From: Planctomycetota bacterium
Lineage (GTDB): Bacteria > Planctomycetota > Planctomycetia > Pirellulales > PLA5
Length of the DNA: 41,262 nt
NCBI GenBank assembly: GCA_003576845.1
Contig: QEVJ01000043.1
Span: forward strand, 1-41,262
Reading direction: 5' to 3'
Of the stretch, positions 1 through 32,998 are shown in pieces. A program made the position numbers and the translations under genes. Position 1 is the stretch's first letter, and each line of letters starts with the position of its first letter. Below the pieces are notes generated by a model, which saw only the letters and a program-made list of their open reading frames with translations, had not been told where the DNA came from and made no database searches.

Positions 1-702
1 GAGGCCGTGCTGGCCGACATCGCCTCGCAGGGAAGCACCGAGGTTTATTGCCTGGGCGATATCGTCGGCTACGGCCCGAATCCCCGCGAGTGCATCGACC
101 TCGCCATGCAGTGCCAGGTCTGCCTGCTCGGCAATCACGACCAGGCCGCGCTTTTCGACCCGGAAGGCTTTAACACCGGGGCCGAGAGGGCGATTTTCTG
201 GACCCGAGATCAACTCGAAAAGCCGACCGACGACCCCGAATTGCAGGCCAAACGCTGGGATTTCTTGGGCGAGTTGCCGCGGCATCACCGCGAAAACTCG
301 CTGCTGTTCGTCCACGGTTCGCCGCGCAACCCGCTCAACGAATACGTCTTTCCCGAGGACATCTACAACCGGCGGAAGATGGAAAAAATCTTCAGCCTGA
401 TCGAGAAGTATTGCTTTCAGGGGCATACGCACGTGCCGGGCGTGTTCACCGAGGGCCTGCAATTCCATACGCCCGAGGAAGTCGGCCACCAATTTCGTTT
501 GGCCGGCGAGCGGCTGATGTTCAATGTCGGCTCCGTCGGCCAACCCCGCGACGGCGATCCGCGATCGTGCTACGTCGTGCTGGAAGACGACCTCGTCACC
601 TACCGCCGCGTCGATTACGACCGGGACAAGACGATCCAGAAGATTTACGACGTCCCGGAACTCGATAACTTCTTGGGCGACCGCCTCCGCGAAGGGCGAT
701 AG
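1..702 (+). CDS. Metallophosphoesterase family protein (5' truncated)
   Basis: The window opens inside this gene, so the first metal-binding motif (the usual N-terminal DxH) is missing and the GTG at position 7 is not the true start. What remains is 233 codons in frame. It shows the calcineurin-like phosphoesterase motifs in order: [10 protein letters not shown], then LLGNHDQA, and later QGHTHVP, which together supply Asp, Asn, His and paired His ligands of a di-metal centre. The arrangement matches the short cytoplasmic YfcE/MJ0936-like phosphodiesterases. The substrate cannot be read from the sequence. No signal peptide can be judged because the N-terminus is absent. The gene ends with TAG and is followed 44 nt later by a small membrane-protein gene on the same strand. 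Family assignment is firm; specific function is open. Confidence 0.9.
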
Positions 703-28301: not shown

Positions 28302-28355
28302 TTGACGAATCGAGAGTCCAGGCTATATTTTGAGTAACCAAAACTTTGTTTTCGG
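28302..28355 (+). promoter_or_regulatory. Candidate tro promoter with operator-like dyad
   Basis: A sigma70-like promoter is visible: TTGACG at 28302-28307, a 16-nt spacer, and TATATT at 28324-28329. Just downstream, where transcription should begin, AAAAC-TTT-GTTTT (28340-28352) is a perfect 13-bp dyad, extended imperfectly by CC and CGG. A dyad overlapping the start site would suit a repressor such as a DtxR/MntR-type protein. No dimensioned consensus for this lineage is available, so the operator is an inference. Confidence 0.5.
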
Positions 28356-28418
28356 ACGATAAAAAACATGTGCCGATCTTCCAACACCCGACCGCAAACC
28401 TCAATCTCGGATCCCGTC

Positions 28419-29448: not shown

Positions 29449-30207
29449 ATGTCCGTTCTCGACATTCACGACATGACCGTGGCCTACCACCGGCGGCCGG
29501 TGTTGTGGGATGTCGATCTCGTGCTCGAAGAGCCGCGGCTGGTGGGCGTGTTGGGACCGAACGGCGCCGGCAAGAGCACGCTCGTCAAGGCGGTGCTGGG
29601 TCTCGCGCCGATGGCCCACGGAACGGTTCGCGTCTTCGGCGAACCCGTCGAGCGCGTCCGCAAGCGGATCGGTTACGTCCCGCAGCGCGAAAGCGTCGAC
29701 TGGGACTTTCCGGTGAGCGTGCTCGACGTCGTGCTGATGGGCACGTATGGCCGGCTGGGCTGGTGCCGGCGGCCGGGACCGCGCGAGCGGCAGCTTGCCC
29801 GCGAGTGCCTGGCCAAGGTCGGCATGGAAGACTTCGAGCGGCGGCAGATCGGGCAGCTTTCGGGCGGGCAACAGCAGCGGACGTTTCTTGCCCGCGCGCT
29901 CGCGCAGCAGGCCGACTTGTACTTCATGGACGAACCGATGGCCGGCGTCGACGCGGCGACCGAGCACGCGATTTTTACGCTGCTGGGCGAGCTGCGCAAG
30001 GCGGGTAAAACGGTCGTCGTCGTGCATCACGACTTGCGCACCGTCGAGCAGTATTTCGACTACGTCGTGCTGCTCAACATGCGGGTCGTGGCCGCCGGGC
30101 CGACGAACGGAGCGTTCACGGCCGACACATTGCGGCGGACTTACGGCGGGCGGCTGTCGATGCTCGAAGCCGTCGGCGATGCCGTGGAAGCGCGGGAGCG
30201 GGCGTAA
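29449..30207 (+). CDS. troB: Mn/Zn ABC transporter ATP-binding protein
   Basis: A 252-residue ABC ATPase of the cluster 9 metal-uptake group. Motifs are all present: Walker [10 protein letters not shown] (about residues 37-45), Q-loop in VPQRESVDW, signature [15 protein letters not shown] (about 138-152), Walker B LYFMDEP (about 158-164), D-loop, and the H-loop in VVVVHHDL. Translation from 29410 would add 13 residues encoded by the heptamer array ([13 protein letters not shown]), so the ATG at 29449 (MSVLDIHDM) is preferred. It has no Shine-Dalgarno sequence. The stop TAA overlaps the ATG of the next gene (TAATG), so it is tightly coupled to the first permease. Confidence 0.95.
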
Positions 30208-31544
30208 TGAACGCCGGGTGTTTTCTCGTCGCGCAGGCATCGTCGCTCGGCGAGCGCGTCGCGGATCGGTCGTTCGACTTCGTGCAAGCGGCCGCCGAGG
30301 CGCTCGGCGTTCCCTACAACACGCTGCTCGTGCTCGCGACCACGGCGCTGTTGGGCGCGGTGTCCGGCGTCGTGGGATGTTTCGCCGTGTTGCGGCGGCG
30401 GGCACTCGTGGGCGATGCCTTGGCCCACGCCGCGCTGCCCGGGTTGTGTGTGGCGTTTCTGCTGGCCGGCGTGCGGAGCGTGCCGGTCATGCTGCTCGGG
30501 GCACTGGCGTCGGGAGTGGTCGGGATCGGCGCGATCGTCGCCCTGCGCCGCGGGACGCGAATCAAGGAAGACGCCGCCATCGGAATCGTGTTGTCGGTGT
30601 TCTTCGGCGCGGGCATCGTGCTCAGTAGCTGGATCCAGAACAGCACGGCCACCGGCAACAAGGCGGGACTCGACTCGTACATTCTCGGCAAGACGAGCGG
30701 AATTGCGGCCGGCGATCTCGTCGTCGTCGCGGTGGCGTGTCTGGCGTGCATCGCGCTCGTGGCGCTGGCGTTCAAGGAGTTTCGGCTGGTGACGTTCGAC
30801 GCGCCGTTCGCGAGGGCACAGGGCTGGCCGGTCGCGGTGGTCGATTTTGGCCTGCTGGCGATGATTGCGATCGTGGTGGTGATCGGGCTGCCGACGGTGG
30901 GCGTGGTGTTGATGGCGGCGCTATTGATCATTCCCGGCGCGGCGGCGCGATTCTGGACGGAGCGGCTGTGGGCGATGACGTTGCTCGCGGCCGCGTTTGG
31001 GTTGGCGGTCGGCATCGTCGGCGCGGCGGCGAGCTCGCGGGTCGAACGCCTGCCGACCGGACCGATCATCGTGCTCGTCGGCACGCTGTTGTTTCTCATA
31101 TCGGCGACGTCGGCACCGCGGCGCGGGGCGGTGGCGCGGTGGGTGGCGGCAAGGCGGTTTGCGCGGACGATCGCCGTGCATCGGTTGCTGTGCGAGATGT
31201 TCGAGGCGACGACGGAAGTCGCGTCCGATTGGCGGCCGAGCGAACACCGACTCGCGATCGCCGAAGCGCGGCGGCGGGGATACGTGCGACCGGCAGCGGA
31301 TGGTTACGAACTGACCGAAGCGGGCCGCGCAGCCGCGATCGACGCGCTCCGCGACGAACGGCTTTGGCAGGCGGTTCTGGTCGAGTATCCCGAACTGGCC
31401 GTCGGGGCCGCCGATCCGTTTCACGCTTCGGCGAGCGAAGTGTTGCCGCCGGCGATTATCGGCGAACTGACCGAGCGCCTGCGAGCGGCCGGGCGCTGGC
31501 CGGAGGAACTGCGGGCGGTTGCCGCGTCGGGAGGGTCGCCGTGA
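30207..31544 (+). CDS. troC: Metal ABC transporter permease with degenerate DtxR-like tail
   Basis: A 445-residue protein, far longer than the roughly 280-300 residues of a normal cluster 9 permease. Residues 35-305 are the membrane domain, with the family's coupling segment 'RRRALVGDALAHAALPGL' (about 63-80), a run of about eight helices, and 'IGLPTVGVVLMAALLIIPGA'. Residues 315-445 are a soluble extension resembling a DtxR-family repressor: a winged-helix part 'RRRGYVRPAADGYELTEAGR' (about 355-374) and a dimerisation-like part 'DERLWQAVLVEYPELAVG'. The metal ligands are mostly replaced (E384 for His, Q388 for Glu, S410 for the Cys/Glu ligand). The start overlaps the troB stop; the stop overlaps the GTG start of the second permease. 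Confidence 0.9.
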   Translation: MNAGCFLVAQASSLGERVADRSFDFVQAAAEALGVPYNTLLVLATTALLGAVSGVVGCFAVLRRRALVGDALAHAALPGLCVAFLLAGVRSVPVMLLGALASGVVGIGAIVALRRGTRIKEDAAIGIVLSVFFGAGIVLSSWIQNSTATGNKAGLDSYILGKTSGIAAGDLVVVAVACLACIALVALAFKEFRLVTFDAPFARAQGWPVAVVDFGLLAMIAIVVVIGLPTVGVVLMAALLIIPGAAARFWTERLWAMTLLAAAFGLAVGIVGAAASSRVERLPTGPIIVLVGTLLFLISATSAPRRGAVARWVAARRFARTIAVHRLLCEMFEATTEVASDWRPSEHRLAIAEARRRGYVRPAADGYELTEAGRAAAIDALRDERLWQAVLVEYPELAVGAADPFHASASEVLPPAIIGELTERLRAAGRWPEELRAVAASGGSP

Positions 31545-32998
31545 TCGCTCCGCACGACGATCTGCGTACTCCGCACGACGATCTGCTCGCTCCAGCCGAT
31601 AAGCCGCTCGCCCCGCTGCCCGCGCGGCGCGATCCGCGCGGCGATATCGTGCTCGGCGCGGTCGTAATTGCCCTCTTCGTGCTCGGCGTGTGGCTCGTCG
31701 CCCGCTTGCCGGCGCCGGGGCTGTCGTGGTGGACCGTGGCCATCGCGGCGACGTGCAGCTCGGCCTGCGGTCTCGTCGGGTGCTATCTCGTGCTGCGGAA
31801 AATGAGCCTTTTGGGCGACGCCATCAGCCACGCCGTGCTGCCGGGCATCGCCTTGGCCTTCTTTGTTTCCGGCGAAATCACCGGCGTGCCGATCTTCCTG
31901 GGCGCAATGGCTCTCGGCGTGCTCACGACGCTCTTGACGCAGGCGCTTCGCGACTACGGCAACGTGCCGGAGGACACCGGCATGGGCATCGTGTATACCG
32001 CGCTGTTCGCGGCGGGCGTGATCCTCGTGCAAGTCGGCGCGCGGCAGGTCGATCTCGATCCGGGTTGCGTGCTGTACGGGATGCTCGACATGGCGGCGCT
32101 CAACACGACGCGCGTATTCGGCGTCGAAGTGCCGCACTCGATCGTGACGCTCGGCATCGCGCTGGTTACGACGCTGGCCTTCATCGCCGCGTTGTGGAAG
32201 GAGCTGAAGATCGCTTCGTTCGACGCCGGCCTGGCGACCGCGATGGGCTTTCGCGCGATGCTGATTCATTACCTGCTGATGGCCGTGGTGGCGGGCGTGA
32301 CGGTCGCGTCGTTCGAGGCCGTTGGGTCGATTCTCGTCGTCGCCATGCTGATCGTGCCGGGCGCGACCGCCCATTTGCTCACCGATCGGTTGGGTTGGAT
32401 GCTCGCGTGGTCGGTCGTCGTGTCGCTGTTGTCGGCGTTGTTCGGCTACGCGCTGAGCCGGTGGCTGAACGTGAACGTGGCGGGCACGATGGCCGTCGTG
32501 GCCGGAACGCAGTTCGCGCTCGCCGTGTTCCTCGCGCCGCGGCACGGATTGCTGGTCAAGTGGCTGGCGAGCGTGCGGCTATCGCTGCGGATCGTCGGCG
32601 AGGACGTCGTCGCCCGGCTCTACCGCCACGAGGAAGCGGCGACCGGCGCGGCGTTCGACGCGACGCAGGGAGGCGACGGCGAGCCGCAGTCGGTCTGGCA
32701 GCGCTGGCGACGGTCGTGGGCGATCGCGAGCCTCGTCAATAGCGGTCTCGTGCGACGCGCCGCCGACGGCACGCTGCTACTCACGGCGGCCGGCAGGCAG
32801 GTGGGGCGATCGATTGTCCGCGCGCACCGCTTGTGGGAAAGCTATCTCGAACGCCACTTCGAGTTGCCGCTGGACCACGTTCACGAACCGGCCGAACGCA
32901 TCGAGCACTACCTGGGACCCGAGCTCCAGACGCAACTCGCCGAGCAACTGGCGGAACCCGAGCAGGACCCGCACGGGCGAGCGATCCCGCCGTCGTAG
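31541..32998 (+). CDS. troD: Metal ABC transporter permease fused to a DtxR/MntR-like sensor
   Basis: A 485-residue fusion starting at GTG with GGAGG six nt upstream and overlapping the troC stop by four nt. Residues 36-335 are a cluster 9 permease ('RKMSLLGDAISHAVLPGIAL' at about 86-105; 'GSILVVAMLIVPGATAHLL' at about 262-280). Residues 346-485 match DtxR/MntR: helix 1 'GEDVVARLYRHEEA' (353-366; D355 aligns with MntR Asp8), a wing TLLLTAAGRQ, and the metal-binding dimerisation helix region. Ligand equivalents H429, E433, H448, E452, E455 and H456 keep DtxR spacing (79, 83, 98, 102, 105, 106), with Glu at 452 where DtxR has Cys and MntR has Glu. The end 'DPHGRAIPP' matches the usual DtxR exit motif. 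Recognition-helix residues are unusual, so DNA binding is doubtful. Fusion is inferred to sense cytoplasmic Mn/Fe. Confidence 0.92.
   Translation: MIAPHDDLRTPHDDLLAPADKPLAPLPARRDPRGDIVLGAVVIALFVLGVWLVARLPAPGLSWWTVAIAATCSSACGLVGCYLVLRKMSLLGDAISHAVLPGIALAFFVSGEITGVPIFLGAMALGVLTTLLTQALRDYGNVPEDTGMGIVYTALFAAGVILVQVGARQVDLDPGCVLYGMLDMAALNTTRVFGVEVPHSIVTLGIALVTTLAFIAALWKELKIASFDAGLATAMGFRAMLIHYLLMAVVAGVTVASFEAVGSILVVAMLIVPGATAHLLTDRLGWMLAWSVVVSLLSALFGYALSRWLNVNVAGTMAVVAGTQFALAVFLAPRHGLLVKWLASVRLSLRIVGEDVVARLYRHEEAATGAAFDATQGGDGEPQSVWQRWRRSWAIASLVNSGLVRRAADGTLLLTAAGRQVGRSIVRAHRLWESYLERHFELPLDHVHEPAERIEHYLGPELQTQLAEQLAEPEQDPHGRAIPPS
31548..31589. repeat. Two 21-bp (3 x 7) direct copies at the troD N-terminus
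   Basis: CTCCGCACGACGATCTGC plus three nt occurs at 31548-31568 and again at 31569-31589 (18 of 21 identical), starting two codons after the GTG. Each copy is three heptamers and encodes a seven-residue unit (PHDDLRT, then PHDDLLA). This looks like a heptamer array carried into coding sequence. Confidence 0.85.

Follow-up and report, generated by a model that had tools for sequence, protein, structure and literature searches.

What does a metal sensor of the DtxR/MntR type do when it is carried at the cytoplasmic end of a metal ABC permease? The question is raised by a 41,262-nucleotide stretch of planctomycete DNA (contig QEVJ01000043.1; hereafter the window), which belongs to a genome of 7.05 Mb (G000, contig C258) and holds a four-gene ABC operon of the Mn/Fe/Zn type on the + strand. 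The earlier note, made from the sequence alone, had read the second permease as fused to an intact sensor, through which the transporter would read cytoplasmic metal itself, either by allosteric inhibition or by tethering a DNA-binding repressor to the membrane. The features of the locus are as follows:

28328..28343, no strand assigned: operator-like palindrome TTTTGAGTAACCAAAA 5' of the operon, with 11/12 fixed positions of TTTTGA-N4-TCAAAA
28419..29363, + strand: substrate-binding protein, ZnuA/TroA family (Pfam PF01297, E 1.5e-79)
29449..30207, + strand: ABC ATPase (Pfam PF00005, E 1.6e-27)
30207..31544, + strand: permease 1 (C position), 445 aa, ABC-3 domain at residues 42-300 (Pfam E 3.9e-60)
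31122..31541, + strand: tail of permease 1, a degenerate DtxR-like domain (from its ligand letters and the model)
31541..32998, + strand: permease 2 (D position) with a fused putative metal-sensor tail, 485 aa, GTG start
31736..32530, + strand: ABC-3 domain of permease 2, residues 66-330 (Pfam E 1e-44, 153.4 bits against a cut-off of 20.1)
32549..32635, + strand: continuous helix 337-365, the joint between permease and tail, equivalent to DtxR helix 1 and carrying D355, R362 and E365 (model)
32636..32782, + strand: degenerate winged-helix part, residues 366-414 (HTH profile scan, column information and model)
32783..32989, + strand: Fe_dep_repr_C metal-binding/dimerisation domain, residues 415-483 (Pfam PF02742)
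32825..32908, + strand: ligand stretch H429-E433-H448-E452-E455-H456, five of the six invariant in 101/101 distinct tails

The two permease genes overlap, and the substrate-binding protein gene has an alternative in-frame start further 5', at 28368. The top NCBIfam matches of the ATPase were Mn and Mn/Fe-type ATPases, every one under its cut-off; for the ATPase and the substrate-binding protein together, the matches, all sub-cut-off, spanned Mn, Mn/Fe and Zn systems. In an AlphaFold2 model of permease 2 (71 sequences; mean pLDDT 90.1, pTM 0.84), the membrane part superposed on PsaBC, the Mn importer of Streptococcus pneumoniae and the closest solved permease, with Z 30.2 and rmsd 2.7 over 271 residues at 32% identity; the aligned PsaBC chain (272 residues in the structure) has no DtxR-like tail. 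Mn, Fe and Zn are thus all candidates for the transported metal.

The tail comprises, as had been proposed, residues 346-485 of the 485-residue permease 2, in a reading frame that is open from 31541 to 32998. Its DtxR character was evident from profile and predicted fold: Fe_dep_repr_C matched with E 4.1e-23 (81.6 bits against a 27-bit cut-off), phmmer searches of solved chains returned the DtxR family over residues ~393-483 (best 8pvt, E 2.7e-14; DtxR itself E 3.1e-9), and the modelled tail took the DtxR fold (Z 17.1, rmsd 2.2, 131 residues). The six ligand equivalents H429, E433, H448, E452, E455 and H456 are all present, with the 4-15-4-3-1 spacing of DtxR. Their DtxR counterparts, which we take to be H79, E83, H98, C102, E105 and H106, fit the structural alignment of residues 348..485 onto DtxR 3..135, and the entry titles name M10, H79 and C102. 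D355 maps to DtxR position 10, i.e., MntR Asp8, and the DPHG..IP motif is also found in the permease-2 tail. The description of the sensor as intact held for the metal-binding/dimerisation domain and failed for the DNA-reading part, in which the DtxR HTH (PF01325) was undetected and only a winged-helix remnant is left. In the model, a long helix (337-365) exits the membrane part nearly without a linker, and the joint is confident. Residues 366-384, at the location of HTH helix 2, have no assigned helix, and confidence drops in part of this segment (block means 84, 67 and 90); helix 385-400 and two short strands persist as the winged-helix remnant, which is covered by the DtxR superposition.

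The predicted metal site is conserved in relatives of permease 2. H429, E433, H448, E455 and H456 were identical in 33/33, 71/71 and 101/101 distinct tails (overlapping sets), and D355 is Asp in 94/101. The H/E/[H or D]/E/H set was complete in 101/101 permease-2 tails, 60/79 permease-1 tails and 36/37 free regulators, the single exception among the last being a shortened row. Position 452 varies (E 16, H 8, D 4, S 3 and M 2 among 33 tails; E 50 and H 25 among 101), so that the suggestion that Glu452 points to Mn selectivity is weak. Certain other residues mark the fused tails and seldom occur in free regulators, namely R362 (101/101 permease-2 tails), E365 (100/101), H446 (91/101) and W432, the last of which occurs in 101/101 permease-2 and 76/79 permease-1 tails versus 1/37 free rows. 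Residues 362, 365, 432 and 446 are possible ATPase contacts or additional ligands.

Tail rows in these comparisons were 110-200 aa long (second-set permease 1 from 100 aa), with identical rows counted once; the permease 2 of L097 was dropped for an unreliable frame boundary, and L098 for its length. The 37 free rows were drawn from the best-scoring PF02742 matches and from regulators found beside operons, a choice that favours conserved ones; at least four genes are represented by two rows that differ in their ends (L001 of the window's own genome, and L085/L027, L086/L021 and L089/L024 as pairs). Alignment A1 held 34 sequences (the window's and 33/36), A2 held 30 (the window's and 29/33 tails), A3 held 71 (P0001 and 70/77) and A4 held 52 (the window's and 51/53).

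In principle, such a fusion might reflect two genes joined by an error of sequencing or annotation, a reading to which we assign a negligible probability. Orthologues repeat the fusion in one frame, both in a same-genus genome and in dozens of others, and it was recovered without using the tail: when the membrane part alone served as query, 63 of the best 71 permease-2 matches (E <= 6.8e-39, order genomes; compared by eye with tail positions) had a same-strand tail match directly downstream. The orthologue comparison yielded no evidence in favour of an artefact, and a frameshift was rejected on the strength of the one-frame orthologues. Eight of the 71 matches had no directly downstream tail match (G274, G295, G326, G397, G401, G405, G296 and G362). 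The G362 match lies at a contig end, that in G326 is partial, and in G274 the frames are short and a tail match is missing altogether; some of the eight are apparently truly tail-less. With free regulators and fused tails pooled, PF02742 matches were present in 161/294 genomes of the phylum, and the tail as query found matches in 107/117 order genomes. A pattern scan of genome contigs gave at least 596 stretches, at least 590 of them relatives; the best 80 came from Planctomycetota in 76 cases, from genomes without a phylum in three and from one labelled Myxococcota. The fusion thus recurs across Planctomycetota.

The fusion is therefore real, as the earlier note had it, although that account omitted a homologous tail on permease 1. 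In the window, this second tail carries E, Q, D, A, S and E at the six ligand positions, i.e., the metal ligands are lost, and it has no Pfam family match; PF02742 was detected in 27/34 homologous permease-1 tails. The best solved relatives of the permease-1 model (pLDDT 85.7) were of the DtxR family, although weak (Z 8.5; Foldseek E >=0.015). Many permease-1 tails of the order (e.g. L073, L076, L080 and L095) have a C-terminal P-x-SPH motif near the position of DPHG..IP, which is absent from permease 1 of the window.

Counted over 86 distinct two-permease loci (L071, L096, L097, L098, L099 and L100 excluded), both tails had a complete ligand set at 54, an incomplete permease 1 accompanied a complete permease 2 at 19, permease 1 lacked the domain at eight, and a complete permease 1 accompanied a winged-helix stub on permease 2 at five. 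No locus of the 86 had two degenerate tails, a count biased by the choice of loci through some tail match. Given that eight permease-1 and five permease-2 proteins are without the domain, a pair of tails is not possible at every locus. The arrangement is reversed at L085-L089, with the full sensor domain on permease 1, an 82-94 aa winged-helix stub on permease 2 and a free regulator gene adjoining the operon. Permease 2 precedes permease 1 at L107 and L118. At L071:1680-4088 (G333), an open frame of 802 aa encompasses both permeases and terminates in a sensor tail, so that the membrane unit of this importer is apparently a single chain. At L096, L098 and L099 (G056, G205 and G211), a single permease was found whose tail of ~230 aa comprises the metal domain and an extra C-terminal region, FeoA-like in L099 (E 0.0045, under cut-off); these long tails form a clade of their own (100/100) and lack the PF01325 HTH.

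The main rival to a sensing function arises here. The tail could be an exit-site acceptor that receives metal as it leaves the channel and hands it over, an assembly module that holds permeases and ATPases together, or both, with no feedback on transport. Such a role would suit the persistence of 19/79 permease-1 tails, the window's included, without a complete ligand set, the DtxR-fold dimerisation part that both tails share, and the extension of the tail from the cytoplasmic end of the permease. Pure assembly, however, would not need five invariant ligands in 101/101 permease-2 tails, and the eight loci without a permease-1 tail also speak against an acceptor or assembly function, which we consider unlikely.

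To what extent the tails can still read DNA bears on the remaining readings. By Pfam scan, the window protein had no PF01325 match at E <= 1. The same profile matched 0/30 permease-2 tails at E <= 0.01, although PF02742 was present in 30/30, and it matched 0/3 long single-permease tails and 1/34 permease-1 tails, the last weakly (E 0.006). Among free regulators it was found in 10/10 scanned, i.e., in 7/7 (seven of the ten collected) plus three of three small ones beside operons. Column information told the same story across helix 2-turn-helix 3 (1.31 bits in permease 2, 1.48 in permease 1 and 2.87 in free regulators) and the wing (1.08, 1.19 and 2.77), whereas the ligand columns held 3.97, 3.18 and 4.07 bits, respectively. 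In a small subset that spans the phylum (11, 15 and 9 rows), the corresponding HTH values were 1.63, 1.86 and 2.97 bits. A nine-residue HTH signature was defined on the free set, which makes its contrast partly circular; the column-information comparison is free of this circularity. The tail thus resembles free DtxR/MntR/IdeR regulators (that on contig C243 of the same genome, DR2539, SloR, DtxR and IdeR) in its two-domain fold and metal-ligand pattern (Z 17 to DtxR), and differs from them in that they have a conserved HTH, a FeoA domain in the seven scanned and no membrane part.

These results argue against the tethered DNA-binding repressor put forward in the earlier note: the HTH signature is unrecognisable in the tail and its relatives, while the operator and the recognition helix of the free regulators are conserved. 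The tail may make nucleic-acid contact of another kind, because a winged-helix remnant persists and the model superposes on most of the two-domain DtxR fold, HTH included. Selection remaining on the tail appears, from its conservation pattern, to concern metal binding and fold.

The operator belongs to a recurrent class. Matches to TTTTGA-N4-TCAAAA at 11/12 positions or better lay before homologous operons in 34/80 upstream regions, against 0.3/80 expected from shuffled sequences. The other 46/80 regions comprised 11 at 10/12 and 35 at 9/12 or fewer, the latter no better than shuffles. An inverted-repeat search of the promoter with seed 6 found none, and the gapped palindrome was seen by direct comparison. 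In the window's own genome, TTTTG-N6-CAAAA occurs at six places, versus one for a reversed control pattern. The five further copies lie on C17, C134, C184, C266 and C275 (L182, L183, L184, L186 and L187); the five candidate genes beside them have no recognisable metal role (DinB-like, RecO and three without a Pfam match), and a wider regulon was not found among them.

Candidate readers of this site are encoded elsewhere. The free regulator of the same genome (C243, 237 aa) combines HTH, metal domain and FeoA, and an exact genome search found no operator copy at its gene. At L085, L086 and L087, a free regulator gene is divergently oriented next to the operon, and a 12/12 operator copy occupies the junction, whereas at L092 the distance from a 12/12 copy to the start of the free regulator frame that follows it is 47 bases; tail ligands are nonetheless retained on one or both permeases at these four loci. 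At L083, L088 and L089 a free regulator adjoins the operon and no exact operator copy was found. The PF01325 HTH was over its cut-off in 37/41 fusion genomes and, among the matches listed, never within a fused tail (compared by eye via coordinates, with a profile that also covers DtxR-type regulators other than MntR). An operator of at least 10/12 was present in 22/35 regions from genomes with an HTH-bearing regulator and in 0/3 from genomes without one (Fisher p 0.066, sorted by eye), numbers too small to be relied on. A conserved site would need a conserved reader, which fits the free regulator and not the tail, and we infer that the operator is likely read by a separate MntR-type regulator.

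The presence of both proteins also allows a reading in which the free MntR-type regulator is captured in hetero-dimers with the tails, such that the number or state of transporters controls the repressor. Tails and free regulators share a fold and a dimerisation domain and coexist in most of the genomes tested, yet the two sets differ in their conserved residues, as with W432 above. A tree built from 107 tails and regulators, moreover, separates the 37 free rows from all fused tails by a 100/99 branch; the branches of this tree are long and its bootstrap unsettled, and the split between free and fused alone was used. We therefore regard capture as improbable. The same split makes a single fused lineage possible.

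Chlamydia is, like the Planctomycetota, a bacterium of the PVC group. Its YtgCR (CT069), in the C. trachomatis ytgABCD operon, combines a permease with a DtxR-like domain at the C-terminus; published accounts describe this domain as metal-binding, released by cleavage, and a repressor of ytg and trpBA that binds promoter DNA in a metal-dependent manner (PMC5599777, PMC7755916). The fusion itself, which the earlier note had presented as a surprise without citing this precedent, is accordingly not new. Both systems have an ABC metal permease with a C-terminal DtxR-like domain, metal ligands and an A-B-C-D operon; the fusion in YtgCR is on the C permease, whereas here both permeases are tailed, with metal ligands preserved on the permease at the D position, the HTH signature gone and a putative free repressor still encoded. 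A protease might likewise free the planctomycete tail as a metal-dependent repressor of its operon, in line with the precedent and with the finding that 4/41 fusion genomes have no PF01325 HTH over the cut-off, i.e., that a free reader is not found everywhere. We hold this to be very improbable: the DtxR HTH is undetectable in 30/30 permease-2 tails, recognition helix and wing are unconserved, the model has neither HTH helix 2 nor a flexible linker, and 37/41 genomes have separate HTH-bearing regulators. A repressor, whether tethered or released, was rejected as the main reading on account of the absent HTH signature. In Treponema, the TroABCD-R operon has the same layout with a DtxR-type Mn/Fe regulator (PMC2628430); TroR is encoded by a separate gene, whereas here the regulator domain is fused to the permease.

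Taken together, the analysis documents the fusion and its spread in Planctomycetota, a conserved metal site, the loss of the DNA-reading signature, a partner tail, a recurrent operator and separate HTH-bearing regulators. The reading that we prefer, and to which we give an even chance, is that the tail is the DtxR/MntR-type metal-binding domain of a former transcription factor, which now serves as a built-in cytoplasmic sensor that trans-inhibits an Mn/Fe/Zn-type ABC importer. In the assembled importer, the two permease tails would pair next to the ATPases to form a DtxR-like (pseudo)dimer, and cytoplasmic metal would fill the site of the permease-2 tail. The filled site would then rearrange the tails and, through the continuous helix 337-365, slow transport, with transcription of the operon left to the free MntR-type regulator at 28328-28343. 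This reading is suggested by a metal site that is kept while the DNA-reading signature is lost, by an operator that recurs while the recognition segment of the tail is unconserved, and by a modelled joint to the membrane part that is a confident continuous helix and not a loose linker. The proposal that the transporter itself reads cytoplasmic metal thus gains support, as an inference. Several points weaken it: the 19/79 ligand-incomplete permease-1 tails would equally fit a purely structural role, the regulatory domain of MetNI and ModABC sits on the ATPase and not on the permease, some loci do not allow a pair of tails, and some permease-2 matches apparently have no tail. The winged-helix remnant and the 46/80 upstream regions below 11/12 operator positions count against it as well. 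In MetNI and ModABC, binding of substrate to C-terminal domains inhibits transport (PMC10710835). The likeness is that of a C-terminal, cytoplasmic, substrate-sensing domain, with sensing and inhibition published there and only proposed here; the domains on those ATPases have other folds, whereas the permease tail would be of DtxR descent. Among open-licence PMC papers, represented mostly by titles and the beginnings of abstracts, neither a planctomycete fusion nor a metal-feedback DtxR tail was found.

More broadly, we tentatively propose, with slightly less than even confidence, that much of the Planctomycetota has a heterodimeric cytoplasmic metal sensor derived from two demoted DtxR copies, one per permease, with a metal site on at least one subunit and with DNA reading lost. 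The DtxR family would then control metal import twice, as a free repressor and as a brake on the pump. The reading leads to a concrete prediction, built on a single operator, a single free repressor, a set of five invariant ligands and tails that are easily cut, and it may bear on how the cleaved permease-repressor of Chlamydia arose or diverged. Should it hold, these importers would offer a clear example of a transcription factor that became an allosteric transporter domain, and direct metal feedback on an ABC-3 metal importer would add an extra level of Mn/Fe control.
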